Shown: piece after piece, positions 23,237 through 53,290 of the stretch
Numbering within the stretch: the first letter of the stretch is position 1
Layout of the letters: each line of letters starts with the position of its first letter
Source of the DNA: Sphaerisporangium siamense
GTDB taxonomy: Bacteria; Actinomycetota; Actinomycetes; Streptosporangiales; Streptosporangiaceae
Assembly (NCBI RefSeq): GCF_014205275.1
Contig: NZ_JACHND010000001.1
Coordinates: forward strand, 868,001-932,000
DNA: 64,000 nucleotides
Reading direction: 5' to 3'
Program-made: the position numbers and the translations under genes
Notes under the pieces: generated by a model
Told to the model about the DNA's origin: nothing
Databases searched by the model: none
What the model saw: only the letters and a program-made list of their open reading frames with translations

Positions 23237-23255
23237 CTCGCTCTTCAGAGCGCTG

Positions 23256-23298
23256 AGCCGCCTAAGGGAATCGAACCCTTGACCTACGCATTACGAGT
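23256..23298 (-). other. attachment site: displaced 3' half of tRNA-Thr(CGT)
   Basis: The - strand reads ACTCGTAATGCGTAGGTC, then AAGGGTTCGATTCCCTT and AGGCGGC: anticodon loop with CGT, 3' anticodon stem, variable loop, T arm and acceptor 3' strand. The bases upstream (CGGAA) do not pair with the TGCGT stem strand, and no D arm or 5' acceptor strand is present, so it is not a full tRNA. This is the scar left when an element integrates into a tRNA 3' end and supplies a new one at its other boundary. Confidence 0.8.
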
Positions 23299-23513: not shown

Positions 23514-23756
23514 TCACTTCTTCCGCTTCGGCCCACGCGCGGCCGGCTCGACTCCTCGTTCGCGCACAACCCGGCGGACGTAGGCGGCGGAGAATCCGCA
23601 GTTCTGGGCGATCTCCTCGGGGCTGTAGCCGGCCATGGCTGCGGCGGCCCAGACGTCGAACATGGACTCTCGCGCGGCCTCGATCTGGGCCTCGCTCTCA
23701 GCCTTCTTCGCCTCATATTGGCGACTGGCTCGCGCGACGGACTGAAGATCACTCAT
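23514..23756 (-). CDS. Small HTH DNA-binding protein, probable repressor of the transfer operon
   Basis: 80 residues. An N-terminal charged helix (SRQYEAKKAESEAQIEAARE) is followed by an HTH-like segment (AGYSPEEIAQNCGFSAAYVRRVVRERG) and a basic tail (ARGPKRKK). It is divergent from the + strand operon that begins at 23898. Two near-identical palindromes lie between the two genes, the nearer one 13 bases from its start. By position it is the likely autorepressor controlling the module, as KorA/TraR-type proteins do on conjugative plasmids. Confidence 0.6.
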   Translation of the reverse strand: MSDLQSVARASRQYEAKKAESEAQIEAARESMFDVWAAAAMAGYSPEEIAQNCGFSAAYVRRVVRERGVEPAARGPKRKK

Positions 23757-23768
23757 GCCGAAAGCATA

Positions 23769-23822
23769 TCGCAACTGCTGTTGCGAATCACTCCCCCAGA
23801 TAGTTACGCTACTGCTGTAGCG
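23769..23822. promoter_or_regulatory. Twin palindromic operators between divergent genes
   Basis: TCGCAACTGCTGTTGCGA (23769-23786) and CGCTACTGCTGTAGCG (23807-23822) are perfect inverted repeats with the same TGCT centre, both followed by AATCA. Consensus CGCWAC-TGCT-GTWGCG. The centres are 37 bp apart. They lie in the only divergent intergenic region of this part and fit a dimeric HTH repressor. Confidence 0.75.
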
Positions 23823-23897
23823 AATCAGCAAGACGGCCCCCGCCTGACGATTCCGCCGCCGGACGAGGGCCTTGCACAGGAAGTGAGCTCCTGCACC

Positions 23898-24719
23898 ATG
23901 ACCACCGTACCGACCCCCGCCGAAGAGGCCACCACGCCGACCCCCCTCGACCTCAGCGCGCTCAAGCAGAGCCTCACCGCCGGGCAGCGCAACGGCCGCT
24001 CCTGCTACCGCTGCGGCTCCACCGAGCGCCCCCTCGTACCCGCCGGAAAGCTCCTCGACGTGGACGTGGTGGAGTGCGACGTCCACCGCTGGGAGCGCGA
24101 CAACCAGGCCAGCCCGCCCCTGTGGCTGACCGGGCCCTGCCCGGCGTGGTGCGAGGAGAAGCACCGCGGCAGCGACCACCCCGACGACCGCAAGCACCAC
24201 GGCGGCACGCTGTCCGTGCCGCTCCTCACCATCGCCTTCGAGAACTTCGGGACGCGGGACGAGCCGCGTCTCGCGCCGGTCGAGCTCCTGGCCGACCTCA
24301 TGCAGCACCACCGTGAGGCCGAGCCGCGGGTCGTGCTCGGCGACACCAGCGACACGTTCTCGCGGTACCTGTCCCTCGGCGAGGCGCAGCGGTTCGCCTT
24401 CGACCTCGTGGAGCTGGTGGCCGCCGGCCGCACCGGCACCGACGTGCAGACGCTTCCGGCGCCCGGGGGGGCCGCCGGATGTCAGCCGTGGTGCGCCAAG
24501 GAGCACGACCCCGGGTGCCCGGAGCTGTGCCTGGCCGAGAACGAGCCCGTGCCGGTCAGCGGGTCGCCCGCCGACGCGTTCGTGGGGCTGTCCCACCACC
24601 CCGACGACGGGACGGTCATCGACGTCGACAGCGCGCTGCACCTGACCGTGGACGAGGCCGAGGTGCTCGTCCTGGCGCTGCTGCGGCAGATCCGCCGGGC
24701 CCACCTGAAGGCCGCCTAG
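23898..24719 (+). CDS. DUF6907-like zinc-motif protein
   Basis: 273 residues. CYRCGSTERPLVPAG comes first, then two copies of a C-P/Q-x-W-C-x3-H motif: CPAWCEEKHRGSDHPDDRKH and CQPWCAKEHDPGCPELC. The C-terminus has a hydrophobic helix (EAEVLVLALLRQIRRAHL). This is the DUF6907 pattern, common on actinobacterial integrative elements; function unknown. It is the first gene of the + operon facing the twin operators. A GTG at 23883 is in frame but abuts AGGAA. Confidence 0.6.
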   Translation: MTTVPTPAEEATTPTPLDLSALKQSLTAGQRNGRSCYRCGSTERPLVPAGKLLDVDVVECDVHRWERDNQASPPLWLTGPCPAWCEEKHRGSDHPDDRKHHGGTLSVPLLTIAFENFGTRDEPRLAPVELLADLMQHHREAEPRVVLGDTSDTFSRYLSLGEAQRFAFDLVELVAAGRTGTDVQTLPAPGGAAGCQPWCAKEHDPGCPELCLAENEPVPVSGSPADAFVGLSHHPDDGTVIDVDSALHLTVDEAEVLVLALLRQIRRAHLKAA

Positions 24720-24725
24720 CAAGAC

Positions 24726-24761
24726 GGCCCCGGGCCGGTGCTCGAACACCTGCCCGGGGCC
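24726..24761 (+). terminator. Long hairpin after the DUF6907-like gene
   Basis: GGCCCCGGGC and GCCCGGGGCC enclose a second pairing GGTG/CACC. It follows the stop by six bases. It may attenuate rather than end transcription, since the operon continues. Confidence 0.6.
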
Positions 24762-24796
24762 TGAACCCAATCCCTGCACGAACAGGAAGAGGATCT

Positions 24797-24913
24797 ATGG
24801 GCAACATATCGCCCCCGCAGTGCGCCGTCCCCTGCCGCGCCGCCGTCCACGACCGGCCCGGCGCCGCCCGCGCGCCCCGCCTCGCCCTCCGGCTGACCGG
24901 GGGTGGCCGGTGA
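24797..24913 (+). CDS. Small protein, 38 residues
   Basis: MGNISPPQCAVPCRAAVHDR... with a CxxxxC pair. AGGAAGAGGA precedes the ATG, and its TGA overlaps the next start (GTGA), so it is likely translated. No family recognised. Confidence 0.45.
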   Translation: MGNISPPQCAVPCRAAVHDRPGAARAPRLALRLTGGGR

Positions 24914-25050
24914 AGCGCGCCGAGCAGTGGCCCAGCGCCCTCGACGACCAGCCCGGGACGCCGCTGCGGTCGTGCGCCTGCGGCGCCTTGCAGGTGAGCC
25001 CTGGGCACGTCTGCCCGCGCACCGCCCCGGAAGCGAAGGACAAGCGATGA
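24910..25050 (+). CDS. Small cysteine-containing protein, 46 residues
   Basis: VKRAEQWPSALDDQPGTPLR, then SCACGALQVSPGHVC. The C-x-C and later C resemble a small zinc-knuckle. GTGA overlap at the start and ATGA overlap at the end place it within a translationally coupled operon. Confidence 0.5.
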   Translation: MKRAEQWPSALDDQPGTPLRSCACGALQVSPGHVCPRTAPEAKDKR

Positions 25051-25199
25051 CCGGCGAGAAGATCGAGGCGTTCCTGGACACGCTGACCGCCCGGCAGCTG
25101 CGGCTGGCCGCGGTGTGGCTGCTCGGCTATGACCGGGAGGCGTTCGCCCGCGCGACCGGCCTGGCCGTCGAGGACGTGCCGGATGTGGTGGCCCGATGA
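25047..25199 (+). CDS. Small helical protein, 50 residues
   Basis: MTGEKIEAFLDTLTARQLRL... a short amphipathic helical protein with an HTH-like second half (YDREAFARATGLAVEDVPDVV). Coupled by 4-bp overlaps to both neighbours. Function unknown. Confidence 0.5.
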   Translation: MTGEKIEAFLDTLTARQLRLAAVWLLGYDREAFARATGLAVEDVPDVVAR

Positions 25200-26452
25200 A
25201 CCTCCGCTGGCCCTTCCAGGACTTCCTCACGACCGTCCCCACGCAGGTGTGGCAGACCCTCCTTGCCGTCGCCACAGTGACCGCCACGGTGCTCGTCCTG
25301 AGGCAGCTGCTGCGCGGCGTCAAGCTGCTCGCCGGGCGGGTCGCCGCGGCCGGCCGCCCCGGCGAGGACATCCTCACGATCGCGGTCGCCTGCATCGCCA
25401 CCGGCGTGTCCGCCCAGGGCATGTGGCGCTTCACCGGGGACGTGCTCGGCTTCGACGGGCCGCTGCGCCTGCTGCTGTTCGCGTTCATCGAGCTGGCCGT
25501 CCTCGCCAGCGCCGTGCGCGCCCGCCGCAACATGCGGGAGAACCATTCGGCCGGCATCGACGGCATCGCGGTGTGGGTGCTGGCCGCGCTCACCGCCGTC
25601 TTCTCGGCCCTGGACGCCCGCAGCGCGGCGGAGGCCATCTTCCGGCTCGCCGCCCCTCTGGTGGCCGCGTGGCTGTGGGAGCGTGGCATGGCCATCGAGC
25701 GGCACCGCATCAGCGGGCGTTCGCGCATCAAGTGGCGTTTCACCCGGGAGCGCGCGATGGTCCGCCTCGGCCTGGCCGAGTTGAGCGACCGCACCGTGAC
25801 CGAGGTGGACGCGCACCGCAGGCTGACCCGCGTGGCCCTGGCCGCCAAGCGCGCCCGCGCGCTGCGGGAGGCGGGCGCTTCCCACCGCAAGATGCGCGCC
25901 GCGCTTCACCGGCTGGACCGCCGGCTCGACCAGGCCGTCGAGCACACCGGCCTCGCCCGCGACGAGGCCGCGCAGCGGGCGCTGCTGGACCAGGTGACCG
26001 CGCTCTACGGCGGCACGTCCCTGCTGGACCTGCCGGACGTGGCGCCGTGGACCCGCGTCGACCACCCGGCCGTCTCCCGGCCGGAGGTACAGGCCGAGCC
26101 TGTCGCTGAGCTGGTGGAGTACGTACCCGACCGGCCGGCGGTGCCGCCGAGCCGCGAAGTGTACGACTGGGCTCGCGAGCGCGACCTGTTCGACCCGCCA
26201 CCCCCGGGCGACGCCCCGCCTCCCCCGCCGGACGGCGACGAGCGGCCCGTCGAGGAGGAGGCCGAGGACCGGACCGAGTACGTACCTGAGCGCGTACCCG
26301 AGGAGCTGCTGCAGAAGGCGACGAGCCGGTTCCTGCCCAACGTGGTGGCCGGCGACATCCCCGGCGTCCGGACGCTCAAGGACGAACTCAACATCGGCCA
26401 ACCGAAGGCGCAGCTGGTCAGGGCGTACCTGTCCCGGCTGGCCGCGCTGTGA
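25196..26452 (+). CDS. DUF2637 / SpdB-like membrane protein with C-terminal winged-helix-like tail
   Basis: 418 residues. Four hydrophobic helices in residues 15-165 (including TLLAVATVTATVLVLRQLL and LTIAVACIATGVSAQGMW), then a basic coiled region, an acidic Pro-rich linker (PPPPGDAPPPPPDGDE) and a conserved-looking tail (TLKDELNIGQPKAQLVRAYL). DUF2637/SpdB-type proteins accompany the TraB translocase on actinomycete plasmids and ICEs and take part in intramycelial spread. Its position three genes before an FtsK/TraB-like gene supports this. GTGATG-type coupling joins it to the upstream gene. Confidence 0.7.
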   Translation: MNLRWPFQDFLTTVPTQVWQTLLAVATVTATVLVLRQLLRGVKLLAGRVAAAGRPGEDILTIAVACIATGVSAQGMWRFTGDVLGFDGPLRLLLFAFIELAVLASAVRARRNMRENHSAGIDGIAVWVLAALTAVFSALDARSAAEAIFRLAAPLVAAWLWERGMAIERHRISGRSRIKWRFTRERAMVRLGLAELSDRTVTEVDAHRRLTRVALAAKRARALREAGASHRKMRAALHRLDRRLDQAVEHTGLARDEAAQRALLDQVTALYGGTSLLDLPDVAPWTRVDHPAVSRPEVQAEPVAELVEYVPDRPAVPPSREVYDWARERDLFDPPPPGDAPPPPPDGDERPVEEEAEDRTEYVPERVPEELLQKATSRFLPNVVAGDIPGVRTLKDELNIGQPKAQLVRAYLSRLAAL

Positions 26453-26499
26453 CGCCGTACCCGGAGATCAGCTCTGGGTCCAACTCGAAAGGATCTTTC

Positions 26500-26874
26500 A
26501 TGGAGCACGAACCATACATCCGGGCCGTCGCCGAGGCTCTGCGCGCCGCGGACGTCCCCGTAGCGAGCTGGCACGGCAACCCCGACGACCCGCGCAACGG
26601 CGCCATCATCCTGCACCTCGACGACACCAGCGAGACCGCGCTGGTCTGGGATGAGGAACGCGGCTGGGCGCACGGCACCGGCCGCGGGGACGGGAGGCTG
26701 AACCACCTGGAGTGGATCTGCGACGACGTCTTGCCCGAGCCCGCCGAGGTGGTCCACGCCGTGCGCCGCGAGGAGGGCCACGTGCGCGGCTACGACCTGC
26801 CCTGGTATCGGGACTCCGAGGACGGCGACGACTTCCACGAGCGGCTCGCCGCCTACCGTCCGGCCGGGTCGTAG
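26500..26874 (+). CDS. DUF6292-like protein
   Basis: 124 residues. YIRAVAEALRAADVPVASWH, DPRNGAIILHLDD and ALVWDEERGWAHGTG match the pattern I associate with DUF6292, small proteins frequent on actinobacterial mobile elements. AAAGGA lies before the ATG. Soluble and acidic; function unknown. Confidence 0.55.
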   Translation: MEHEPYIRAVAEALRAADVPVASWHGNPDDPRNGAIILHLDDTSETALVWDEERGWAHGTGRGDGRLNHLEWICDDVLPEPAEVVHAVRREEGHVRGYDLPWYRDSEDGDDFHERLAAYRPAGS

Positions 26875-26900
26875 CCGACAGCGCTCACGTCCACGTTTCT

Positions 26901-26944
26901 CCCGCCCCCGGGTCAGAGCTTGACCGGTCCTACCCGGGGGCGGG
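26901..26944 (+). terminator. 12-bp perfect hairpin inside the transfer operon
   Basis: CCCGCCCCCGGG and CCCGGGGGCGGG with a 20-nt loop. It sits 26 bases after the DUF6292-like gene and 22 before the next start, so the distal genes may be controlled separately. Confidence 0.6.
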
Positions 26945-26966
26945 CTCCCCTATGAGAGGAGAGTCC

Positions 26967-27242
26967 ATGCTCCAGCACCCGCCGCGGTCCGGCAAGCGCC
27001 GTGACTGGTACGCCATCGGATCGGCGATCCGGGCTCTGCTGCTGTTGGCGCTCACCGCGGTCGACGACTGGGTGAGTGCCGTCACCGGTATCCGCCCGAT
27101 CCGCTGGCACGCCCGGCGAGCCGCCGACGTCGCCCGCCAAGCGTGGTGGCTCGCCCTGTACGGGCCGCCGGCCGAACCCGGGCCGGACGGGATCTACGAC
27201 GCCGAGGTGGTCGACGACGAGAAGAAGGAGGGTGGGCGGTGA
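26967..27242 (+). CDS. Small membrane-anchored protein, 91 residues
   Basis: MLQHPPRSGKRRDWYAIGSA then one hydrophobic helix (IRALLLLALTAVDDWVSAV) and an amphipathic Arg/Trp segment (WHARRAADVARQAWWLALYG). GAGGAGA precedes the ATG. It overlaps the next gene by GTGA. A small membrane partner of the translocase is plausible but not shown. Confidence 0.5.
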   Translation: MLQHPPRSGKRRDWYAIGSAIRALLLLALTAVDDWVSAVTGIRPIRWHARRAADVARQAWWLALYGPPAEPGPDGIYDAEVVDDEKKEGGR

Positions 27243-27616
27243 AGGCGGGCCGGGACCGGATTCCGGAGCTGTCGAGCATCCCATTCGGCGGGCCGAGCGC
27301 GATCACCGAGTATTCGCGGGCCGGGCGCGACCTGTGCCGCGACCTCAGCGAAGAACTCAACATCGGCGCCGACGAGCTGTACCAGGTCCTCATCCGCTCG
27401 TTTCGCGGGCATCCGGTGCTGGCGCTGCTGGGCGCCCCGGACGTGCGGATGCGGGCCAAGAGGGTGGTCAAGCGGCTGCGCCGCGCGGCCGAGCTGCAGA
27501 AGGGCGCCGGGACCGAGCTGGTGAAGTTCTACGCCCAGTTCCGCAAGGAGTTCGTCAGCGTCCTGCCGCAGGCCAAGCCCGAGCGGCGCCGCGTCGCGTT
27601 CGACTGGGACGACTGA
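27239..27616 (+). CDS. Hypothetical protein preceding the translocase, 125 residues
   Basis: VKAGRDRIPELSSIPFGGPS... a largely helical basic protein (VRMRAKRVVKRLRRAAELQK). No domain recognised. It is coupled to both neighbours by 1-4 bp overlaps (GTGA, TGATG), directly before the FtsK/TraB-like gene, so a joint role in DNA transfer is likely. Confidence 0.55.
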   Translation: MKAGRDRIPELSSIPFGGPSAITEYSRAGRDLCRDLSEELNIGADELYQVLIRSFRGHPVLALLGAPDVRMRAKRVVKRLRRAAELQKGAGTELVKFYAQFRKEFVSVLPQAKPERRRVAFDWDD

Positions 27617-29613
27617 TGGCCGGCCACTCCAAGGACGTCGCCGTCGTCGAGGAGTCCTCGATGGCCAAGGTCGCCGCGCGGGAGGTGTCGCGCCTGGCGC
27701 GCATGGCCACCCCGTGGGTGGTCGGCGTGTTCGGCTACGGCCTGGCCGCGGCGCTGCACTTCGTGCTGTACGACCCCGGCACGATCGCGGCGTGGTCGAG
27801 CATCGCGACGATCTGCGTGGTCGTGCTGACCGGGGTCACCTACGGCCAGTCCCACGCCCGCGGCCCGTGGGGCAAGACCCACACCACCGCCACCACGTTC
27901 CTGGTCGGCATGTGGACCGTGGCGACCATCATCGCCGGTCCCGGGCACCCGGCGATCTGGCGCATCGGCGTGCTCGGCGGGTTCACCACGGCGCTGACGT
28001 GGAACATCCGCACCGTCATCCGCGCCAAGGGATGGGACGAACAGGGCGCCATCACCGACCCGCTGTCGTTCTTGTTCGACCGCAACAAGCGGCAGGCCGG
28101 CCTCGGCGGCGCGACCATCCACACCGTCGAGGAAGGCGAGTCAAAGATCGCCGCCCGGCTGCAACTACCGCCCGGCGAGAAGACCGCCGAGGACGCCCAG
28201 AAACGGGCCGCGAACATGGAATCGGGGATGCAGCTCCCGCCTGGGACGGTCACGGTCACGGTGAACCGGGATGACGCCTCGGTCGCCGACGTGGTGCTCT
28301 CAGACCCGCGGGTCATGGAAAACCCGATCTACTGGCCGGGCCCGTCGCTGCCGGGCGGCACCGCGGCCGACCCGGTGCGAAACGGCGTCTGGCAGGACCT
28401 GGAGCCGGTTTCCTACGTCATCACCGGCCACCACCTGCAGATCATGGGCATGACCGGGTCCGGCAAGAGCTTCGGCGGGTGCTGGTCGCTGCTGGGCGAG
28501 CTCATCACCCGCGACGGCAGCGAGCACGCCGAACAGACCGGCGAAAGCGCTGATGCGGTCGTGGTGTTCGCCATCGACATCACCAAGGGCGAGCAGACCC
28601 TCGGCCCGCTCCGTCCCGCGCTGCACCGGCTGGAGACCACCGAGGAGGGCGCCAAGAGGCTCATCAACGACCTGGAGGCCATCCTGAAGAAGCGCACAGA
28701 CGACCTGTCGGCGCGCGGCTATCTGAAGTGGGCGCCCGGGTGCGGCCTGTCCTACATCGTGCTGTGGATCGAAGAGGCCGCGGACGTGTTCGAGGTCATC
28801 GACATGGACAAGTTCAACCGGCTGATGAAGGCGCTGCGGTCGGGCGGCGGCGGCGTGGTCTACAGCCTCCAGCGGGCCGACTCCAGCCAGCTCCCCACGC
28901 TGACCAAGGGCCAGGCCGGGAACATGTGCTTCGGCGTGGCCAACTCCCATGACGCGGGCTGGGGCCTGTCGGAGGCCCAGCAGGACGCCGGCGCCTCCCC
29001 GGAGCTGTGGGAGAACCGCCAGCCCGGCATGGCCTACCTGGGCGCCCCGACGATCCCGCGGGCGCGGATCGCGATGCCGCTGCGCGCGTACGACTGGGGC
29101 CGCACCGACGCCGAGCGCAACCGCACCATGCGCCAGCACGCCGAAGCCTGGCCCGCCTCGGCCCGCGTCCCCGACCCCATCACCGCGACGATCTGCGCGC
29201 CCTCGACGGGCCCCGCCGGCGGCCCCGACGGCGCCGAGGCGGAGGAGGACGTGTCCGGCGTGGTGGAGGAGTACCTCGAAAGCGACGACCCCGACCCGGA
29301 GGTGCAGGGCGACATCGACGACGAGATCCCCGACCTGCCCGAGGGCGACCCGCCGTGGACGTTCGCCGGGCCCGCCCGGCGAATGAGCGCCGAAGAACGC
29401 GGCCAGGCGCTCCTGGGCCGTCTCCAGGAGTTGTGGGACGGCGGCGCGCGGGACTTCTCCACCGGGGACTTCAAGCCGCTGTGGGAGAGCACCGACATGT
29501 CGCGGTCGTGGGTACAGAAGACCCTCAAGAAGCTGGTGGCCGCAGGCGTGCTAGCCGGGTACGACGAGGACCGGCAGCGGTACCTGATGCCCGACCGTCC
29601 CAAGGTCGACTGA
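27616..29613 (+). CDS. FtsK/SpoIIIE-family DNA translocase, TraB-like
   Basis: 665 residues. Two or more N-terminal membrane helices lie at about 30-125 (TPWVVGVFGYGLAAALHFVL; IATICVVVLTGVTYG). The motor follows with Walker A GMTGSGKSFGG, Walker B IVLWIEEAADVF and a sensor-like VVYSLQRAD. An acidic linker leads to a C-terminal winged helix (TGDFKPLWESTDMSRSWVQK, TLKKLVAAGVLAGY). This is the layout of TraB, which moves double-stranded plasmid DNA between actinomycete hyphae as a hexamer. A block of GTGGCAC repeats begins six bases after the stop, where TraB recognition sites sit on known plasmids. A phage-specific role is the alternative. Confidence 0.8.
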   Translation: MAGHSKDVAVVEESSMAKVAAREVSRLARMATPWVVGVFGYGLAAALHFVLYDPGTIAAWSSIATICVVVLTGVTYGQSHARGPWGKTHTTATTFLVGMWTVATIIAGPGHPAIWRIGVLGGFTTALTWNIRTVIRAKGWDEQGAITDPLSFLFDRNKRQAGLGGATIHTVEEGESKIAARLQLPPGEKTAEDAQKRAANMESGMQLPPGTVTVTVNRDDASVADVVLSDPRVMENPIYWPGPSLPGGTAADPVRNGVWQDLEPVSYVITGHHLQIMGMTGSGKSFGGCWSLLGELITRDGSEHAEQTGESADAVVVFAIDITKGEQTLGPLRPALHRLETTEEGAKRLINDLEAILKKRTDDLSARGYLKWAPGCGLSYIVLWIEEAADVFEVIDMDKFNRLMKALRSGGGGVVYSLQRADSSQLPTLTKGQAGNMCFGVANSHDAGWGLSEAQQDAGASPELWENRQPGMAYLGAPTIPRARIAMPLRAYDWGRTDAERNRTMRQHAEAWPASARVPDPITATICAPSTGPAGGPDGAEAEEDVSGVVEEYLESDDPDPEVQGDIDDEIPDLPEGDPPWTFAGPARRMSAEERGQALLGRLQELWDGGARDFSTGDFKPLWESTDMSRSWVQKTLKKLVAAGVLAGYDEDRQRYLMPDRPKVD

Positions 29614-29619
29614 CCGCCT

Positions 29620-29743
29620 GTGGCACCGTGGCACCCGCAGGCGGGGGTCTGGGGGAGGGATTACAGGTGAAAGGGGTGCCACCATCCGTGGCACCCCTGC
29701 GTGGCACCCTCCGTGGCAGGGAGGCGGCGGCCCTCCGTGGCAC
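29620..29743 (+). repeat. GTGGCAC heptamer cluster, candidate TraB recognition (clt-like) locus
   Basis: GTGGCAC occurs at 29620-29626, 29628-29634, 29688-29694, 29701-29707 and 29737-29743, inverted at 29676-29682, and once as GTGGCAG at 29713-29719. Most copies are within CCGTGGCACC. It lies directly after the TraB-like stop. Plasmid clt loci of the pSVH1 type consist of short repeats next to traB bound by its C-terminal winged helix. Confidence 0.7.
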
Positions 29744-29766
29744 CGCGGCAGGAAGATCAACTTCTG

Positions 29767-29784
29767 GTGGATCGCGCGATCCAC
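29767..29784. promoter_or_regulatory. 18-bp perfect palindrome beside the heptamer cluster
   Basis: GTGGATCGCGCGATCCAC is a perfect palindrome 24 bases after the last GTGGCAC repeat. Possibly part of the same cis-acting locus or an operator. The remaining sequence to 29970 shows no gene. Confidence 0.5.
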
Positions 29785-29970
29785 GCGCGCAGCCGTACGC
29801 GCGGGCGGGTTGCGAACAGCCCGCCGAATATTCCTTGATCTATTCCACCGGTAGGACGACCGCGTGGAAGCGCGGCGGCGCACCCCGACACCCGGCGAGG
29901 GAGAGGTGTACGCCGCCGCACGCCAGACCCGCCCGGCCGCCCCTCCCACGGCGAGGCCGGGCGGGAGCCT

Positions 29971-38592: not shown

Positions 38593-39468
38593 TCACAGGT
38601 AGGCCGATCGCCAGGTCACCTGGACCTGCGCGCCGACGCCGAGCGCCGCCCCGAACAGGGTCAGGTTGTTGGGGCCGGGGGCGAGCTCGAAGTACTCCAC
38701 CGGGACGCTGGTGCCGGTGCGTTTGTACAGCCGGTCGGTAGTGCCGTTCAGCAGCACCGTGCCGGCGTCGGTGTCGACCGTGAGCGTCTGCCCGGCGGGC
38801 AGGTCCAGGTCGAACTCCAGCGACCTGCCCAGCGTGCTGTTGACCATCCGCGGGGTGGTGATCGGCCCGGTGAACACCAGGACCGGGTTGGTGGCCTCGT
38901 TGCCAGTGTTGACGCAGGTGGCGGTGGCCGGCCCGGCCGGGGTGCCGTAGGACAGCGGGTAGGTGAGCGGGTAGGTCAGCCCGCCCGACCCGCCGGTGGG
39001 CGCGCCGATCGTCGCCGACTGCTCGGCGAGCTCGTACAGCCGCGGGTCGGCGCAGCGCCACTGCAGCGGCACGGCCAGCGCGACGCCTGCGGCGAACAGC
39101 TGGTCGACCGACAGCAGACGATTGGCGAACTTCCCGAACGCCACCAGGGTCTGTCCCAGGGCGCGGATGGCCAGCGGCGCCTCGGTGGCGTCCCTGGCCA
39201 CGCCGGTGGCGGCGCGCAGCGCGTGCACCGCATCCCCCATCGCCGACCGCTCGGCGACGATCCGCACGATCGCGGTCACCGTGCGGGCCTGCGCGCGCGG
39301 CCGTCCCGCCCACGAGCCGTGCCGGGACGGCCGCGGCACCGACCGGTCCACCAGCGGCGGGCTGTCCAGCCACCCGTCCAGCTGCACGACGGTGTAGGGG
39401 GTGCCGGTGCCGATCAGGAAACCGTCCCAGTCGATGTCCCAGTCGCCTGCGATCAGTTCGCCCGCCAT
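38593..39468 (-). CDS. Distal tail (Dit-like) protein
   Basis: 291 residues, directly downstream of the tape measure gene. The N-terminal part (DWDIDWDGFLIGTGTPYTVV, ...ARTVTAIVRIVAERSAMGD) and C-terminal part (ELAPGPNNLTLFG...VQVTWRSAYL) fit siphovirus Dit proteins, which link the tail tube to the tip. Overlap with the tape measure stop is TGATG. Confidence 0.7.
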   Translation of the reverse strand: MAGELIAGDWDIDWDGFLIGTGTPYTVVQLDGWLDSPPLVDRSVPRPSRHGSWAGRPRAQARTVTAIVRIVAERSAMGDAVHALRAATGVARDATEAPLAIRALGQTLVAFGKFANRLLSVDQLFAAGVALAVPLQWRCADPRLYELAEQSATIGAPTGGSGGLTYPLTYPLSYGTPAGPATATCVNTGNEATNPVLVFTGPITTPRMVNSTLGRSLEFDLDLPAGQTLTVDTDAGTVLLNGTTDRLYKRTGTSVPVEYFELAPGPNNLTLFGAALGVGAQVQVTWRSAYL

Positions 39469-42400
39469 CAGTACCCCCGCGCGATGGAGAGCAGGTAGAA
39501 CTGCTCGGCGATGTCCCGGGGGTCCTGGGCGGGGCTGGCGTAGTACCGCTCGATGGTGACACCTCCCCGGACCGGGACCGCCGTCTCCGCGCCGCGGGGC
39601 GCCGCCGCAGGCGCGGGCATGGGCATCATCGACAGCGCGCCCTGCGGCTTGAGGAACACCCCGCCGAAGTCGTCGGCGATCTGCGAGACGAGGGACTCGG
39701 CCCTGTCCCGGTAGGCCAGATCATACGGAACGAAAGCTTCGTCACCTCTGCCCTCCCCGTACAGGATCGTGGGCCGGGAGGCGATCATCGGGGCGGCCGG
39801 GCGGCGTATCCCACCGGCGGCGTACCGGTCGATGCCGCCGATCTCGCGGTTGGCCGGGTGGTTGCGCATCTCCTCCCGCTCGCGGATCAGCTCATCCAGC
39901 GCCCCGAACTCGATCTTGACGATGCGAATCCGGCCCAGATCCAGGCCCCTGTCGACCTGGAGGCCGAGTTCCCACGCCGCGGCGTACACATCGGTGCGCC
40001 TGTCCAGCATGGTCTGGCGCAGCTGGTCGGCCACGCCCTGGCCGTGGGTCCTGGCCACCTCCCTGAGCACCCGCAGCGTCTCATCCAGGTTGCCGGCGAA
40101 CTGGTTACCGGCCTCCTTGCCGCGCGAGCCCATCAGCCCGACGAACTGGCGCAGCTGCCCGTCGGTCATGTTCGCCATCTGCTCGACCAGGCCGGCGCCG
40201 CGCGGGCCGAGCGTCCGCAGCTGCTCCATGATCTCGTCGGGCACCCGCCCGCCCAGCGTGATCATGTTTGCGGCCCACCGCTCCTGGGCCCCCACCTGCT
40301 CGGCCAGCGACGCCAGCAGCGCCTGAGTGGTCACACCCGAATCGCCGCGCAGATCCGCCCACGCCTGACGGACCGCTTCGCCGGCGGCGATCGCCTCCCG
40401 GGCGGCGTCCTGGCGGGTCTGGCGGACCCGGTCCTCGGCCTCGGCGACCTCGCGCGCGCTGTCCTTGGCGGCTTTTGCGACCTCGGCCTGCGCGGCGGCG
40501 ATCTCCCGCGCCGAGTCGCGGGCCGCGGTAGCCGCCTCGCGTGTGGCCGCGGCGACGTCGTCCTGGGCGCGCTGGACGTCGGCGGCGTTCTGCCGGCGGG
40601 TCTGGTCCAGCTCGGCCTCGGCGCGAGCCAGGGCACGCTCGGATTCCTCCCGGTCGCGGTCGGCCCGCGCCCGGGTGTCGGCCAGCGCACGCTCGGCATC
40701 GGCGATGGTGCGGGCGTTTTCGGCGCGCTGGGCGGCCAGCGCCGCCTCGGCCTCCTGCTCGGCCTGCTGGGCCTCGGCGATACGGCCCTTGGCCGCGACG
40801 ACCTCGGCGCTGCCCTCGATGCCATCCCGGTTGGCCTGCTCGATCTCGGCGGCGAGTTCGGTGTTGCGTTTCTGCACCCGGCGTAGGCCCTGCTCGGCCC
40901 GCTCCAGGGAGTTCTCCGCCTCGCGCAGATCCAGATCCGAGACCTCGATGTCCCCGGCCTTGCGCCGAGCCAGCAGCTCATCGCGGCGCTCCAGGGCCCG
41001 CGCCAGGGCGATCTGCGCCGACTCCTCATCGGTCGCGCCTTCGGCCTGGGCGTCAGACAGCTCTTCCACCCGGCGGCGCGCGCTGGCGTAGGCGGCCTCC
41101 AGATCCTTGACCGCCTCGACCGTGCGGGCGTGGCTGTCCTGTACCCGCCGGCTGGCGGCGACTTCGCGGGCAGCCGCTTCGGCCTGGGTGTCGGCGACCC
41201 GGCGTGCCGAGTCTTCGATGGAGCGGGCCGAGTCGGCGGCGACCTCATCGGCGCGGCGCCGCGCCTCCTCGACCCCCTCCCGGGCGGCCTGCTCGCGCTG
41301 GGCGCTCTGCTCGACCGCCGCGGCGAGGGCCTCCTCGGCCGCGCGGATCCGGGCCTGGGAGCGTTCGGCCTGCTCGGCGGCCCGCTCACGGGCGGCGCTC
41401 TCGCGAGCCTGCGCGGCGGTGACCCGCTCGGCGGCCTGCTCGTGCGCCAGGGCCAGATCGGCCTGCGCCCGGCGGATCTTGTCGGCTCCACTCCGCTGGA
41501 CCTCGGCCAGCCGCTGGGACGCCTCGACGAGCTTCTCCTGGGCGGCCGCCTTGGCCTTGGCCTGCTCGACCGCCTGGCCGATGTCGATGAAGCTGGTGTA
41601 GGCCTGCGCCCAGGCCTCCCGCGTCGCCTGGGCGGCAGCCTCCTGAATCGTGGTGGCCTCCCGGGCCGCGTCGGCCGCGCTGCGCGTAGCGGCGCCCAGG
41701 CCCCGCACGTCCCTGCTGGACTCGGCCGCAGCCATGCCCGCAAATGCCACTACGGCCCCGGCCGGGGCCATCGCGGCGACGAAGGCGGCCGCGGCCTTGG
41801 CGTTGTCGTGCAGCCAGTCGGCGAACTTCGTCAGCTCGCCGATGGCCCGGCCGGCCCAGTCCACCAGCGTGGCCAGCCCGACCATCATGCGCTTGACGAC
41901 CTGCGGGTTCTCCTCGACGGCGTCGGTGATCGCGGTGATCGCGTTCGCGAAGTGGCCCATGATCTCCGGCATCGCGGGGCCCAGCTCGCGCAGCACCGCC
42001 GAGAAGGCGCGCTGGATGCCGTCCAGGGCCGGTGTCAGCTGCTCCAGGCTGGCCCCGGCCTGGTCGACGAAGTTCTCCACGTCGGGGGCCAGGGCCTCAA
42101 GGTTGCGGCGTACCGCCGGTGACAGCGACGACAGTTCCCGCTCGGCCACCTGGACGATCTTGACCCAGACCTGCTCGAACGGCTCGCCCATCCGCGCGGC
42201 CTCTGCCTTGGCGTACGCCTGCAGCTTGCCGAGCGCTTCCTGCGCCTTGTCGCTGCCCTTGGCCGCCGCCAGCCCCAGGGCGGCCAGCGCGCCACCCAGG
42301 ACCACGGTGATGCCGTTGGCGGCCACGAGCGCCGCGCCGGGCAGCGCGCCGAGCGCCACCGCGACCGCGGCCGGGCCGCCGCGCGTGGCGGTCGCTCCCA

Positions 42401-43088
42401 GCTCGGTCAGCGCCTGCCCGATCCCGCTGATCGCCGACTGGGCCGCCCGGCCACCGTCCACGTCCACCCGGATCCGGGAGACCCTCCCGTCGACCTTGCG
42501 CGCCTCCCGCTCCACGCGCTCCAGGCCGGCGATCGCGCGCTCGACGTCGACGCCGACCAGCACCTCGGGATGCTGATCCGCCAGGACCATCAACTCCCGG
42601 CGGACCTGGGCGATCTTCTCCTGGGCGTCGCGCGCGCTGATGTCGATGCCCAGCCGCATGCCCGACAGCTCCCGCAGCCGGCCGGTGAGCTCGGCGAGCT
42701 GCCGCTCAGGCTGGGACAGGTCGGCCTCGACGTCGAGCTTGGGCAGCCGCCGGGTGGCCTCCTCCAGCAGCCGGCGCGTGCGCGCCGCCGAGCTGCCGAT
42801 CGCGTCCATCTGGGCGGCGCTGCGCTTGAGCTGGGCCTCGTGGGCGCGCAACGCCTTCTCGCTGCGCTGGGCCGCGTCCTCTTGGCCCTTGAGGGCCTTG
42901 CTGTAGCTTTCGGCGCGCTGCCCGGTCTGCTGCAGGGCCCGCTCGGCGCGCTGGGCCGCGTCCTCCTGGCCGCGCAGCGCCCGCTCGAACCTGGCGGACC
43001 GCTGCTCGGCGGCCTGGAAGCCTCGTTCGAGCTGGGAGACGTCCGCGCTGACGCTGAGGCGTAGGTCACGGAACTTGGTCGCGGCCAC
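39468..43088 (-). CDS. Tape measure protein
   Basis: 1206 residues, the longest phage gene in the window. The N-terminus has repeated coiled segments (ALRGQEDAAQRAERALQQTG then ALKGQEDAAQRSEKALRAHE). A hydrophobic stretch lies near 240-280 (VAVALGALPGAALVAANGIT) and another near 430. An extremely long Ala/Glu/Arg coiled coil covers about 500-950. Length and position (after the chaperones, before Dit) define it. It sets tail length, at about 1.5 angstrom per residue by the usual rule. Start GTG with GGGAGGTGA. Confidence 0.9.
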   Translation of the reverse strand: MAATKFRDLRLSVSADVSQLERGFQAAEQRSARFERALRGQEDAAQRAERALQQTGQRAESYSKALKGQEDAAQRSEKALRAHEAQLKRSAAQMDAIGSSAARTRRLLEEATRRLPKLDVEADLSQPERQLAELTGRLRELSGMRLGIDISARDAQEKIAQVRRELMVLADQHPEVLVGVDVERAIAGLERVEREARKVDGRVSRIRVDVDGGRAAQSAISGIGQALTELGATATRGGPAAVAVALGALPGAALVAANGITVVLGGALAALGLAAAKGSDKAQEALGKLQAYAKAEAARMGEPFEQVWVKIVQVAERELSSLSPAVRRNLEALAPDVENFVDQAGASLEQLTPALDGIQRAFSAVLRELGPAMPEIMGHFANAITAITDAVEENPQVVKRMMVGLATLVDWAGRAIGELTKFADWLHDNAKAAAAFVAAMAPAGAVVAFAGMAAAESSRDVRGLGAATRSAADAAREATTIQEAAAQATREAWAQAYTSFIDIGQAVEQAKAKAAAQEKLVEASQRLAEVQRSGADKIRRAQADLALAHEQAAERVTAAQARESAARERAAEQAERSQARIRAAEEALAAAVEQSAQREQAAREGVEEARRRADEVAADSARSIEDSARRVADTQAEAAAREVAASRRVQDSHARTVEAVKDLEAAYASARRRVEELSDAQAEGATDEESAQIALARALERRDELLARRKAGDIEVSDLDLREAENSLERAEQGLRRVQKRNTELAAEIEQANRDGIEGSAEVVAAKGRIAEAQQAEQEAEAALAAQRAENARTIADAERALADTRARADRDREESERALARAEAELDQTRRQNAADVQRAQDDVAAATREAATAARDSAREIAAAQAEVAKAAKDSAREVAEAEDRVRQTRQDAAREAIAAGEAVRQAWADLRGDSGVTTQALLASLAEQVGAQERWAANMITLGGRVPDEIMEQLRTLGPRGAGLVEQMANMTDGQLRQFVGLMGSRGKEAGNQFAGNLDETLRVLREVARTHGQGVADQLRQTMLDRRTDVYAAAWELGLQVDRGLDLGRIRIVKIEFGALDELIREREEMRNHPANREIGGIDRYAAGGIRRPAAPMIASRPTILYGEGRGDEAFVPYDLAYRDRAESLVSQIADDFGGVFLKPQGALSMMPMPAPAAAPRGAETAVPVRGGVTIERYYASPAQDPRDIAEQFYLLSIARGY

Positions 43089-46113: not shown

Positions 46114-46550
46114 CGGGTGAACGCCTCGACGGCGACCAGGAACCGGACGGTGGCCTCGGCCCCGTTCTGGGTCTGCTGCTGGGTCAGCGACTCGGTGGCC
46201 AGCCGCGTGTACGTGACCGCCCCGTCGAGCCGAGGGTCGGCGGCGATGGCCGAGGCGATGGTGTCGACCAGGCCGTAGGCGCGGTCGCGCGAGGCCTTGG
46301 CGTCGGCGTCGCCGCGCAGGCTGGAGGCCAGGCAGGTGATGGTGTAGGACTCGCGGTCCGGCTCCAGCGCCAGCTGCTCCACAGCGCGGGTGGACTCCAC
46401 CGCCGCCTCGCCCGGCTCGCCGGTGAAGGCGATGCACACGATGTCGCGGTCGCTGGACATCGGCTGCCCGTCGACCACCTGCACGCCGGGCAGCGCGGCC
46501 CGCACGAGGGCGACCAGGGCGTCGATGACCGCGGGGATGGTGGAGATCAC
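46110..46550 (-). CDS. Neck/tail terminator-like protein
   Basis: 146 residues, MISTIPAVIDALVALVRAAL..., with a CIAFTGEPGEAAVES segment typical of actinophage proteins next to gp10-like genes. Position suggests the tail terminator. GGAGGA precedes the GTG. Confidence 0.6.
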   Translation of the reverse strand: MISTIPAVIDALVALVRAALPGVQVVDGQPMSSDRDIVCIAFTGEPGEAAVESTRAVEQLALEPDRESYTITCLASSLRGDADAKASRDRAYGLVDTIASAIAADPRLDGAVTYTRLATESLTQQQTQNGAEATVRFLVAVEAFTR

Positions 46551-47353
46551 GCGATTCCTCCTACTCGCTCGCCGAGCAGCTCCAGCGCCCGGCGGGGGAT
46601 GGCGAACCCGAAGCGCGGGTCCCAGGTGTCATCGGCGCCGAACCGGGGCGCGACCTGGCCGCGCTGGGTCTCCCACAGGTGCTGCAGGATGATCAGCGCC
46701 GCCAGGCGCACGTTGGGCGGGATGGCGGGGCGGCCGGCCAGGTAGGTGACGATCAGCGGCCCGCACATCCGGCCGCCGTCCTTGCGTTGGATGACCCCGG
46801 TCGTCTCATCGACGTCCAGGTCGGCCAGCGCGGGCGGCACGTGCCCCGGCCACACCGCGGTGATCGAGGTGACCGACAGGATCGGGAAGTGGTTGAGCGC
46901 GATCCCGCGGCCGCCCTCGACCCGCTGGGTATGCACAGTGCGGGCCAGCGCGCCCGCGTACCGCTCGCACACCTCGGTCACCGCGCGGACGAACCCTTGG
47001 AGTTCCTCGTCCTGGTCACGTCCGGTGATGTTCAGCTGGGCCTTGGCCTCGCCCAGGGAGATGACCCCGGCCTCGGCCCACATGGCGGCCACATCGAAGG
47101 ACTCTTCGTCCACCCCGGTCGGCGTGGTGGACACCCAGCGGGCGATGTGCCGGCCGGGCACGGTCGTGGCGAAGTCGTAGTGGTAGGCGCCCGCGCTGTC
47201 GCGCACCACCTGCGGCGCGGTGAACGGCCCCGCCGTGGTGCCGTCCGGCAGCAGCACCGTCAGCGTGATGGCCGCCGGGTCGACGAGCTGGTCGGCGAAG
47301 TCGCGGACCTCGGTGGTGAGCGTGACGACCGCTCCCACTCCGTGCGTGCTCAC
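46547..47353 (-). CDS. Head-tail connector protein (gp6-like) with an extra N-terminal domain
   Basis: 268 residues. The C-terminal half (ISLGEAKAQLNITGRDQDEE; LAALIILQHLWETQRGQVAP) is the gp6/gp15-type head-tail connector. The N-terminal about 95 residues (TEVRDFADQLVDPAAITLTV) form a separate beta domain. GTGA overlaps on both sides. Confidence 0.75.
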   Translation of the reverse strand: MSTHGVGAVVTLTTEVRDFADQLVDPAAITLTVLLPDGTTAGPFTAPQVVRDSAGAYHYDFATTVPGRHIARWVSTTPTGVDEESFDVAAMWAEAGVISLGEAKAQLNITGRDQDEELQGFVRAVTEVCERYAGALARTVHTQRVEGGRGIALNHFPILSVTSITAVWPGHVPPALADLDVDETTGVIQRKDGGRMCGPLIVTYLAGRPAIPPNVRLAALIILQHLWETQRGQVAPRFGADDTWDPRFGFAIPRRALELLGERVGGIA

Positions 47354-50898: not shown

Positions 50899-52314
50899 CT
50901 AGAAGACCGGGGCGATCATGCCGGTGCCGCCGACCTTCTGCATGGCGTTGGCGTACCGGCCGAAGGTATAGGCGAAGTAGGAGTACGCGACGAGCAGGAC
51001 GCCGAGGCTCGCGGCGGCGGGCTGCTCGGCGCGGATGAACAAGGGCGCCGCCGGGTCCTCCCACAGGTGGCATTCGGTGTTGGGGACGACGTACAGCTCG
51101 TCCTCGGTGCCGCCACCCAGGGTCGTCGAGATGTTGTTGTCGACGATGACCTGCAGTCCGGACGGCAGCACGCCCCGCACCCCGGAGGCGTAGGAGGAGT
51201 TCGCGTTGGCCTGCCCGCCGGCCTGGACCGGGATGCCGGTCCAGTTGATGAGCGGCCAGGTGGCCGACATCTGCGAGGACAGCCAGTACCAACGGCGCGA
51301 GTGCATGACCGCGTGGCTAGGGGCGCCCATGGCGAGCAGCGCCGCCTCGACGCCCGCGGCCGCGCCCACGATCTTGGGGTACAGCTCGGCGCCGGTCGGG
51401 GTGCCGTCGGTGTAGGTGTTGGCCACCGCCACCGCGCTCAGCCCGGTCGTCACCTGGTTGATCAGCGTGGAGTCCAGGACGGTCGCGACCCGGTTGAACA
51501 GGTCCTGCATCGTGACGTCCTCGATGCCGGTGCCCCGGTCGATCGCCTGCCGGGAAACGGTCTGCTGCCCGGCCGCGGTCTGCACCGGCACCGTCAGCAG
51601 CGTGTCGTCCATGTTGGTCTCGGAGACCGCGCTGTTCTCCGAGGCCTGCAGCGCCGCCGAGCTGGCGGTGGTGACCCGGGAGATGTTCACGCTCATGCCG
51701 TGCTCGGGCAGCGGGTGCCGGTTGCAGATGTCGGCGAACGGCCGCAGCGCCGCGGTCGCCGGCGCGTACAGGTCGGTCAGGTACTGCGGCACCGTCAGCC
51801 CCGCCCACGCGCCGGTGCCGACGGCGCGGGTCAGGTACTCGGCCCGCTCGACGCGCTCCTCGGCCATGTGCCGGGCGAGGTTAGTCGCGGCCTCGACGTC
51901 CTGGAACATGAACTGCCGGCAGACGTCCATCAGGAAGGCCTTGCCGTAAGGATCGGTGTCCTTGCGGTAGGTCCGCTCCTCGGCGCCGATGCGCACCGTC
52001 CGGTCCCCGCCGGTGCGGCGGGTGTCCACGGGCTTGTGCTCGCGCTGCTTGGCCTCGTGGTCACGCTCCTCGGCCTTGACCTCGCGGGCGTTGTCCAGCT
52101 TGCGCTCGATGCCCTCGATGTCGGCCTTGGCCTGGTCGCGCTTGACGGTGAGCTCGGCGATCCGCTCGTCCTCCTCGGCGGTGAGGTTGGAACGGCCCTC
52201 CTGCTGCGCGGTGGAGAGGATCAGCTCCATCTCCTTGCGGTACTTGGCGCGCCGCTTGTGCGCGGCCTCCAGTTCGACCTCGATCGAGGCGATCAGGTCG
52301 TCGATTCCAGCCAT
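50899..52314 (-). CDS. Major capsid protein (HK97 fold) with N-terminal delta domain
   Basis: 471 residues. The first about 95 residues are a charged coiled coil (EVELEAAHKRRAKYRKEMEL; RIAELTVKRDQAKADIEGIE), the delta/scaffold segment removed by the prohead protease. The rest has HK97-type features (AGLTVPQYLTDLYAPATAAL; FADICNRHPLPEHGMSVNIS; GVLPSGLQVIVDNNISTTLG). It follows the protease gene. GGAAGGG precedes the ATG. It builds the icosahedral shell. Confidence 0.9.
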   Translation of the reverse strand: MAGIDDLIASIEVELEAAHKRRAKYRKEMELILSTAQQEGRSNLTAEEDERIAELTVKRDQAKADIEGIERKLDNAREVKAEERDHEAKQREHKPVDTRRTGGDRTVRIGAEERTYRKDTDPYGKAFLMDVCRQFMFQDVEAATNLARHMAEERVERAEYLTRAVGTGAWAGLTVPQYLTDLYAPATAALRPFADICNRHPLPEHGMSVNISRVTTASSAALQASENSAVSETNMDDTLLTVPVQTAAGQQTVSRQAIDRGTGIEDVTMQDLFNRVATVLDSTLINQVTTGLSAVAVANTYTDGTPTGAELYPKIVGAAAGVEAALLAMGAPSHAVMHSRRWYWLSSQMSATWPLINWTGIPVQAGGQANANSSYASGVRGVLPSGLQVIVDNNISTTLGGGTEDELYVVPNTECHLWEDPAAPLFIRAEQPAAASLGVLLVAYSYFAYTFGRYANAMQKVGGTGMIAPVF

Positions 52315-52489: not shown

Positions 52490-53290
52490 CTAGTCGTCCT
52501 CGTCCTCGACGAGGAGCTGGGTGCGGATCATCGCGATCGACCGGCCCGTGGCCGCCGGCGCGCTCGGCGCGGCGGGCGCCGGGGCCGGTGCGGGGCGCGA
52601 GGGGGCGGCCAGGTCGGCGCGCTGGGACAGCAGGGTGTAGGCCTCGCGGGCGACCAGCGGCGGCAGGTTCGGGATCTCGGCCAGCAGCTCCCCGCTGCGG
52701 GCCGAGATGGAGGTGTGTGGGTTGGCGCCGTAGGTCACCGGCCCGACGTCGCCGCGGTCCAGATCGAAGGCGTCGATGCGGTACTCGGTGTAGTCCGGCG
52801 ACCAGTGCCCTGAGGTGATGCGGAACATGAACGACTGCTCGCGCACGTCGTCGTCCTCGATCGCTTGCACCAGCAGCTGCACGTCGGATCGCTTGGGGTT
52901 CAGCCAGGCGCGCTGGCCCAGGCCGGTGTCGTCGGCCCACAGTTCCAGGCGGCCGTTCTTCGTCCCGGCCATCGGGGTGCCCGCGTGGTTGAAGCGGAAG
53001 ACGACCTCGGGGCTGGCCTCCAGCGTCTTGTCGGCCGCGCCGACGCTGACGATCTCGGTGTACGGGCCGTACCAGTCGTACATCTCGTAGCCGCGCTCGA
53101 ACGCGCTGGCGTACCCCTCGACCTCGAACCACTGCTGGCCGTCGCGCTCCACCTTCTTGGCGCGCAGATGCGAGGCGAACCGCACCTCCGGCGCCTCGGG
53201 CCGGTCACGGGGCAGGGTCATGGTGGCGGAGCGGGCGGCGGCCGCGCGCTCGGCCGCGGCGGCCGCGCGAAGCCCGGACAGGTCGGTCAT
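52490..53290 (-). CDS. Prohead protease (U35/S78-like)
   Basis: 266 residues from the ATG at 53290. The catalytic His is in FRFNHAGTPMAGT and the Ser in REQSFMFRITSG, with the following YRIDAFDLDRGDVGPVTYGA matching HK97-type proteases. A Pro/Ala-rich C-terminal linker leads to an acidic tail (LLVEDEDD). It matures the capsid by cutting the delta domains. ATGA-type overlap with the portal gene. Confidence 0.85.
   Translation of the reverse strand: MTDLSGLRAAAAAERAAAARSATMTLPRDRPEAPEVRFASHLRAKKVERDGQQWFEVEGYASAFERGYEMYDWYGPYTEIVSVGAADKTLEASPEVVFRFNHAGTPMAGTKNGRLELWADDTGLGQRAWLNPKRSDVQLLVQAIEDDDVREQSFMFRITSGHWSPDYTEYRIDAFDLDRGDVGPVTYGANPHTSISARSGELLAEIPNLPPLVAREAYTLLSQRADLAAPSRPAPAPAPAAPSAPAATGRSIAMIRTQLLVEDEDD

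Follow-up and report, generated by a model that had tools for sequence, protein, structure and literature searches.

Genes and boundaries of the element

The stretch analysed here, referred to as the window, comprises 64,000 nucleotides of the Sphaerisporangium siamense genome (C1:868001-932000 of G000, an 8.5-Mb genome in two contigs; labels of this form, including L for loci, are our own handles) and contains an integrated element in which the genes of a temperate siphovirus stand beside a putative transfer module of the plasmid type. The element runs past the end of the window; C1:930001-945000 (L004) was added, and window coordinates are continued into it for positions above 64,000. On the left, the element is bounded by an att (attachment site) scar on the reverse strand (23255..23298), which corresponds to the 3' 44 bases of a tRNA-Thr gene and is identical at 42 of 44 positions to the intact tRNA-Thr(CGT). 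This intact gene, the partner att, lies outside the window at G000:C1:938548-938622 (70548-70622 in window coordinates), giving an att-to-att length of 47,337 bp; in the assembly, the element is integrated at this tRNA-Thr within an 8.49-Mb contig. A tyrosine integrase (69353-70480; PF00589, 1.9e-24) ends 67 bases from the intact tRNA gene. An earlier note on the window alone had recognized the tRNA-Thr scar and had proposed that an integrase and a second att be sought past 64 kb; both are present there. It had also reported no att copy between the transfer and phage halves, which agrees with the searches made here: the 31-base att core is single in the window with up to three mismatches allowed, with no copy at 29.6-32.6 kb, and the tRNA query gave nothing better than E 0.18 for a further copy across 20-76 kb. 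Because the far att and the integrase lie at the expected place, no third att copy was found and the layout recurs in other phages, a single att-bounded element is supported rather than two.

The left part of the element holds the transfer module. A small basic helix-turn-helix (HTH)-like protein of 80 aa is encoded next to the scar (23514..23756, reverse strand; no Pfam match), in agreement with the small HTH regulator previously noted, and proteins that resemble it in size and position, as judged by eye, are encoded after the att in G188 and ahead of the module in G223. All subsequent genes of the module are on the forward strand, beginning with a DUF6907 protein (23898..24719; 8.4e-10) that has homologues at the equivalent place in G188 and G223. 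The SpdB-like protein (25196..26452) combines long, hydrophobic-looking N-terminal helices of membrane type, assigned by eye, with a small C-terminal helical domain (AlphaFold model of modest confidence, pLDDT 70), and its relatives adjoin TraB in other phages. Many of its homologues carry the source name DUF2637, and these names, together with its position, agree with a spread protein of the SpdB/DUF2637 type. The DUF2637 part of the earlier label, a DUF2637/SpdB-like membrane protein, has indirect support, through the homologue names; the DUF2637 domain itself is found neither by Pfam nor among precomputed domains (0 of 120 listed homologues have a precomputed Pfam domain). A separate comparison of P0002 with the DUF2637 protein of plasmid pFP3 gave no BLASTP similarity.

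The small coupled genes noted earlier before the translocase encode a DUF6292 protein (26500..26874; 5.2e-14), a small protein directly 5' of traA (26967..27242) with relatives at the equivalent place in G371/G214 and G311, and TraA (27239..27616), which matches NCBIfam plasmid_TraA (NF041213) at 1.3e-10 with 41.6 bits (cut-off 80) and is 72% identical to its G188 counterpart. TraB (27616..29613) is predicted to be a double-stranded DNA translocase of the FtsK type, with a winged-helix-like domain at its C-terminus as earlier proposed, and matches NCBIfam plasmid_TraB (NF041214) over residues 25-659 at 7.6e-112 and 375 bits, relative to an equivalog cut-off of 800. Its AlphaFold model (pLDDT 69, modest confidence) shows N-terminal helices and the C-terminal domain, and Foldseek placed it closest to FtsK motor domains (5e-10; TM 0.35 by query, 0.55 by target) and also to TcpA; the PHROGs family that it matches has no function given. 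By tblastn, TraB relatives were detected in 51 of 72,556 plasmid records, including pSN22, pJV1 and pWTY27, and 26 of these 51 match at least 80% of the TraB length. The gene order of SpdB-like gene, small genes, traA, traB and repeats matches that of pWTY27 (DUF2637 gene, small gene, traA, traB).

The remainder of the element carries the genes of an HK97-type temperate phage (capsid, protease, portal, terminase, tape measure, integrase and lysis genes), as the earlier note had proposed. Genes on the reverse strand encode an HTH/DUF5753 regulator (30863-31723), a DUF6879 protein (31683-32228), a lysis amidase with a peptidoglycan-binding domain (33126-33899) and a holin (33896-34228), all assigned with Pfam, followed by a tape measure protein (39468..43088; phrog_6090, 1.3e-15), a head-tail adaptor (46547..47353; phrog_442, 4.9e-24), the HK97-type major capsid protein (50899..52314; phrog_2263, 9.8e-44), a head maturation protease (52490..53290; phrog_7053, 6e-25), the portal (53287..54465; phrog_12, 4.8e-53) and the terminase large subunit (54671-56212; PHROGs, 3.2e-64), with an overlapping HTH protein in the small-subunit position (56175-56660). 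An HNH endonuclease (57833..58135; PF01844, 2.1e-4, slightly over the cut-off) and the 3' end of a P4-family/D5 primase-helicase gene (63679..64000), the rest of which lies beyond the window, are on the same strand. In the added sequence, an IS4/5-like transposase gene (65239-65982, or L004 3239-3982) is located between the D5 helicase gene and the gene for a Prim-Pol protein (66122-67294; PF09250, 3.9e-26).

Two smaller observations concern the left boundary. The two mismatches between the att copies are bases that would pair in the presumed T stem of the tRNA, where the scar has A-U and the intact gene G-C; both copies seem to be parts of functional tRNAs, as if the tRNA end had been carried in from a host with another tRNA-Thr allele. 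Just outside the scar, a short reading frame (22879-23031) has a sequence reminiscent of the C-terminal end of RtcB, an RNA ligase.

The clt-like array and its conserved core

Just 3' of traB, six octamers with the sequence GTGGCACC or GGTGCCAC form an array on the forward strand (29620..29744; starts at 29620, 29628, 29675, 29688, 29701 and 29737) that was not part of the earlier note. The octamer GTGGCACC or its complement occurs seven times in the whole window, six of them in this array, and the highest count of any octamer in 500 first-order Markov shuffles of 29614-29970 was four. In the available text of PMC3583192, the clt of pWTY27, defined by transfer tests, gel shift and footprint, consists of TGACACC in four copies at the tra gene's 3' end, and that of pJV1 of nine CCGCACA[C/G][C/G] repeats; the octamer test, applied to both as a control, recovers GGTGTCA five times in pWTY27 and CCGCACA four times in the 62 bases available for pJV1. 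The six-octamer array is thus clt-like and is a putative clt of the transfer module.

An octamer in at least five copies was found behind traB at 24 of 36 TraB loci (23 of 34 without two duplicates), compared with one of 224 comparison genes (229 other genes minus five bordering a traB); among sliding 450-base segments, 38 of 2716 reached five copies of an octamer, traB sites included. The octamer sequence varies by locus, with GTGGCACC, GTGGCCCC, GTTGCACC, GTGACACC and GCGACACC represented. The idea that the octamer tracks the recognition helix, plausible by eye, was not adopted, because G351 has the helix type of the GTGGCCCC loci yet carries GTGGCACC. Additionally, dense arrays of a different octamer, AAACCCCG, were seen beside early genes of two related phages, with up to 12 copies per 450 bp at L132 18000-18900 (G293:C31, ~178.0-178.9 kb) and up to nine copies per 450 bp at L146 600-1350 (G154:C1, ~9935.6-9936.4 kb); these are perhaps replication origins.

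Overlapping the array is a conserved core (29661..29796, forward strand) made up of TTACAGGTGA at 29661, AAGATCAA at 29753 and CGCGCAGCCGT at 29786, in the same orientation as traB. A composite of this core (TTACWGGTSA, 105 to 135 bases, then CGCGCAGCCGT) was found in one copy each in 14 of the 341 genomes of the family Streptosporangiaceae and was absent from a backward control; 13 of the 14 cores lie within ~0.8 kb of a TraB match, and the core of G316 is without one.

The orientation of the core differs between groups of loci. Both core motifs are oriented as traB in 10 phage-borne loci, whereas both are opposite to traB in 11 other loci (Fisher's test for 10/0 vs 0/11, p 2.8e-6, a value that ignores kinship and two of the 11 loci that could not be classified). 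In nine of these 11, tblastn with our own phage protein set, which diverged heads could escape, detected no head genes over the 10-20 kb that follow traB, and the two others (G145:C210 and G161) reach a contig edge too early to tell. The core motif was first spotted by eye in phage loci, making the orientation comparison partly non-independent. Variations were seen as well: in G012 the second motif is present once more, inverted; of the two motifs G375 retains just the first, in forward orientation; and G188 has neither. In all, 11 of the 12 phage-borne loci carry the core, in whole or in part, in the direction of traB. The second motif alone is inverted at nine more distinct loci and forward in G168, whose contig ends after 3.3 kb, and in G004, the exception, where a forward partial core goes with 40 kb of 3' flank in which no phage genes were recognised. 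Neither motif was detected at L092, L120, L006, L007, L008, pFP3, PhiNon1 or the four Streptomyces plasmids tested. Two proposals were set aside on this basis: the core is not phage-specific, since the two-way search found it beside many other TraBs too, inverted, and forward partial cores (L117, L118) do not serve as phage markers, given the lack of recognised phage genes in G004 and the short contig of G168.

Recurrence of the transfer module with phage genes

At E 1e-20, TraB was found in 74 of the 341 family genomes, and in eight of the 74 (G000, G188, G012, G007, G042, G300, G223 and G214, the last with a portal below the Pfam cut-off) a PF04860 portal lies 19-31 kb away on the same contig; TraB and portal converge in every one of the eight. 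G146 has another pair, ~47 kb apart and not convergent, which is outside this count, and G164 has no PF04860 match and a major head protein (1.5e-99) behind TraB. The G188 element is bounded by a tRNA-Arg 3' end (46/46 identical). Within it are late genes, the genes for TraA, TraB, Prim-Pol and a helicase, and one for an integrase that shares 27% identity with that of the window's element. In G351, TraA and TraB are located at the left end of a phage whose capsid, portal and terminase are 77%, 74% and 70% identical to those of the window. The contig G374 (36,747 bp) has a 126-bp end overlap (positions 19-144 equal the last 126) and would close to ~36.6 kb; it encodes tail proteins, TraB, TraA, an SpdB-like protein (48%), integrase, terminase, portal, protease and capsid, with the integrase adjoining the transfer module, as expected across attP. 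The overlap could also be an assembler product of a linear molecule with repeated ends; both halves are present either way. G375 combines a TraB of 38% identity with a capsid that shares 78% identity with the G188 one. In total, twelve phage-borne TraB loci were recognised (G000, G188, G214 (= G371), G223, G012, G007, G042, G300, G164, G351, G374 and G375). TraB beside phage late genes, a co-occurrence of the kind that the earlier note had suggested searching for, is seen in eleven phage or prophage loci besides the window. None of the TraB matches of phage loci contains a stop codon, and clt-like repeats are kept behind TraB in diverged phages.

Among virus and plasmid collections, IMG/VR provided 15 records with TraB (16 loci), seven of which have PF04860 (one below the cut-off, one at a distance of ~60 kb from TraB). 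When two plasmid records are included, PF04860 was found in 9 of 17 and the PF05065 capsid in 6 of 17. TraB and phage genes also stand together on the plasmid records of pFP3 and Thermobispora ZC4. The two halves also occur apart, although not always alone, the pattern that the earlier note had tied to stacked elements. Of 80 virus loci with the window's capsid, the records of 28, mostly longer ones, were tested, and TraB was matched in three: the window's own record, one with a weak match and one other. Within the family, the capsid is present at 52% identity or more in nine genomes, and TraB was found in the same stretch in the window and G188 only: it was not found within 60 kb in G322, G326 and G154, contig ends truncate the stretches of G293, G145 and G004, and G212 was outside the comparison. 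TraB is therefore a minority trait of the window's capsid lineage. TraB modules without recognised phage genes occur in G266 and G267 (20 kb behind traB) and on the Nonomuraea gerenzanensis plasmid p1 (annotated genes). In a tree of 44 TraB sequences, the phage-borne TraBs form no clade and are mixed with those of plasmids and other elements (pFP3 was entered twice, as pFP3 and L149; L090, L005 and G300 were omitted as duplicates, L104 for a stop codon, and L118 was also omitted). These distributions suggest that phages, ICE-like (integrative and conjugative element-like) and satellite-like elements may trade one transfer module.

Several neighbouring observations deserve mention. Directly outside the left att of G188 is an integrase-like stretch (G188:C2:603-2168, L129), and a second portal gene is located ~25 kb beyond its right att (G188:C2:64737-65582), suggesting several elements near this tRNA-Arg. 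Other TraB elements contain single phage-like genes and no recognised head genes: L198 (G149:C368), L196 (G311:C1), L195 (G166:C1), L223 (G160:C21) and L205 (G150:C42). A tape-measure-like protein has a strong PHROGs match in L196, a weak one in L195 and a tblastn match only in L198, and a terminase was identified in G160 (PHROGs, 5.6e-56) and, by tblastn, in G150. It is possible that these elements are phage satellites bearing a conjugation module. The 25-kb second contig of the S. siamense genome encodes another TraB, 44% identical to that of the prophage (G000:C2:19697-21613).

Interpretation, rival explanations and known systems

The observations probably describe a 47.3-kb temperate siphovirus at tRNA-Thr that carries a plasmid-type transfer module by its attP and would spread either by virions or by mycelial transfer; excision, DNA transfer and virion formation are predicted here from gene content. 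In the available text of PMC4170104 and PMC3218068, TraB forms a hexamer on 8-bp clt repeats and translocates double-stranded DNA in unprocessed form; Spd proteins aid spread in the recipient. In the proposed cycle, the siphovirus would be inserted at tRNA-Thr by its own tyrosine integrase, with the SpdB-like protein, TraA, TraB and clt lying beside attP, and the excised circle would be replicated by the Prim-Pol and D5 proteins. The circle could then be packaged into HK97-type virions or, by the second route, TraB hexamers on the GTGGCACC repeats could drive the circle, as double-stranded DNA, into an adjacent hypha, with the SpdB-like protein helping it to cross septa before re-integration. 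Phages are normally thought to exit their host only as particles. A tRNA-integrating phage with a plasmid mating machine could cross a mycelium with no need for lysis or receptors, perhaps taking chromosomal DNA along; the predicted clt octamers provide a direct handle for testing binding and transfer.

A number of results weigh against this interpretation. The TraB and TraA scores are below the NCBI equivalog cut-offs, TraB has no PF01580 or other Pfam match at E 0.1, and the SpdB-like protein has no Pfam match, DUF2637 included. Among 50,697 phage records, no relatives of TraB were found at E 1e-5 and none of TraA even at E 1. The repeat test was weak or negative behind the traB of pCQ4, pFP3 and phage G007, and 25 of the 28 same-capsid virus records, some of which may be fragments, have no TraB match. 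Finally, this prophage copy may be impaired, because the insertion sequence (IS) transposase gene sits between two replication genes.

Part of this evidence would also fit other explanations. TraB is missing from most of the capsid's relatives, and the IS transposase gene between the replication genes could be a sign of decay; the transfer module might then be decayed or captured cargo (a moron) from an actinomycete integrative and conjugative element (AICE), functionless in the phage. This is quite improbable, since the TraB matches of the phage loci are free of internal stop codons and clt-like repeats persist in diverged phages, suggesting selection. Still less credible is the stacking of an AICE and a prophage at one tRNA-Thr with loss of the inner att copy and one integrase. 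Tandem insertion may occur, as the integrase-like stretch outside the left att of G188 indicates, and TraB modules without recognised phage genes exist in G266, G267 and N. gerenzanensis p1. However, the att search found no third copy in the element, and the arrangement recurs with a different tRNA and integrase in G188, in the end-overlapping contig G374 and in convergent layout in eight genomes, so that stacking would need the same loss each time anew; it was set aside on these grounds.

An unlikely but more serious alternative is that TraB is a phage-specific DNA pump that, without any conjugation, transports the DNA of the prophage or phage into spores or, inside a single mycelium, through septa. 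TraB is a member of the FtsK family, and the clt core has a uniform orientation in phages and the reverse one in most of the remaining TraB loci that have it, suggesting a phage-tuned polarity. Against such a role, TraA, the SpdB-like protein and clt-like repeats accompany TraB as they do on plasmids, and the phage TraBs are not a single clade; the combination of TraA, TraB and the clt-like array argues for plasmid-type transfer over a generic FtsK function. The preferred reading of a phage with a plasmid-type transfer module can be extended, tentatively and with rather more doubt than belief, to widespread integrative conjugative phages in the Streptosporangiaceae: diverse siphoviruses would share one TraA-TraB-clt module by attP, with clt polarity fixed in one sense in full phages and in the opposite sense in ICE-like or satellite-like elements, and with the pumping direction of TraB tuned to life style. 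If true, polarity tuning could, for example, avoid or cooperate with packaging.

Conjugating plasmid-phages are already known from Streptomyces. According to the available text of PMC4170104, PMC3583192 and PMC4487206, pZL12 (Zhong 2010) and pFP4 (Chen 2012) conjugate and form virions; they are described as plasmids, and these descriptions set them apart from the present element, which lies in a tRNA gene and has its own integrase. Judged by its genes, the element is an integrating, AICE-like variant of such plasmid-phages. Within a literature sample consisting mostly of titles and the beginnings of abstracts, with few subscription papers, no description recognisable as a tRNA-integrated phage with TraB and clt was found. 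The AICEs and pJV1, pSN22 and pWTY27 resemble the element in having an integrase at a tRNA, Prim-Pol replication and Tra; the AICE definition, in the available text of PMC3218068, requires no virion genes, and the element has a late region. A tyrosine integrase by an att in a tRNA 3' end and a Prim-Pol are present, and a PF01580 Tra is absent at E 0.1. Because the NCBIfam TraB profile matches instead of PF01580, the element, as predicted from its proteins, is AICE-like only and not an AICE by the PF01580 survey criterion. The lack of PF01580 matches in the TraB proteins of both the window and G351 suggests that surveys based on this family can miss this TraB clade.

Individual records come close in part. 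On the 34-kb record of pFP3 (Streptomyces sp. F2, NC_023067), HK97 genes, an integrase, a DUF2637 protein and a TraB relative (30.7% identical over 65%) occur together, with a capsid 49.6% identical over 95%; unlike the present element, it is a plasmid record with ParA and DnaB, and the same test did not find clt repeats. PhiNon1 of N. gerenzanensis (NZ_LT559120), which according to the available text of PMC5431353 circularises and is also integrated at a tRNA-Val 3' end, has HK97 phage genes, DUF2637 and an FtsK-like protein (PF01580 0.0066, below the cut-off). It was rejected as a direct homologue because this FtsK-like protein is missed by the TraB profile and no repeats lie behind it (50,000 of 59,257 bases covered). 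The Thermobispora bispora ZC4 plasmid (NZ_CP039125) is alike in its TraB (37% identical), phage capsid and HK97 protease and in the GTGACACC repeats after traB, and unlike in being a large plasmid (145-kb record) in which the clt core was not found. On pWTY27, a gene annotated as phage major capsid protein is located just past the clt (L217 4166-4785).

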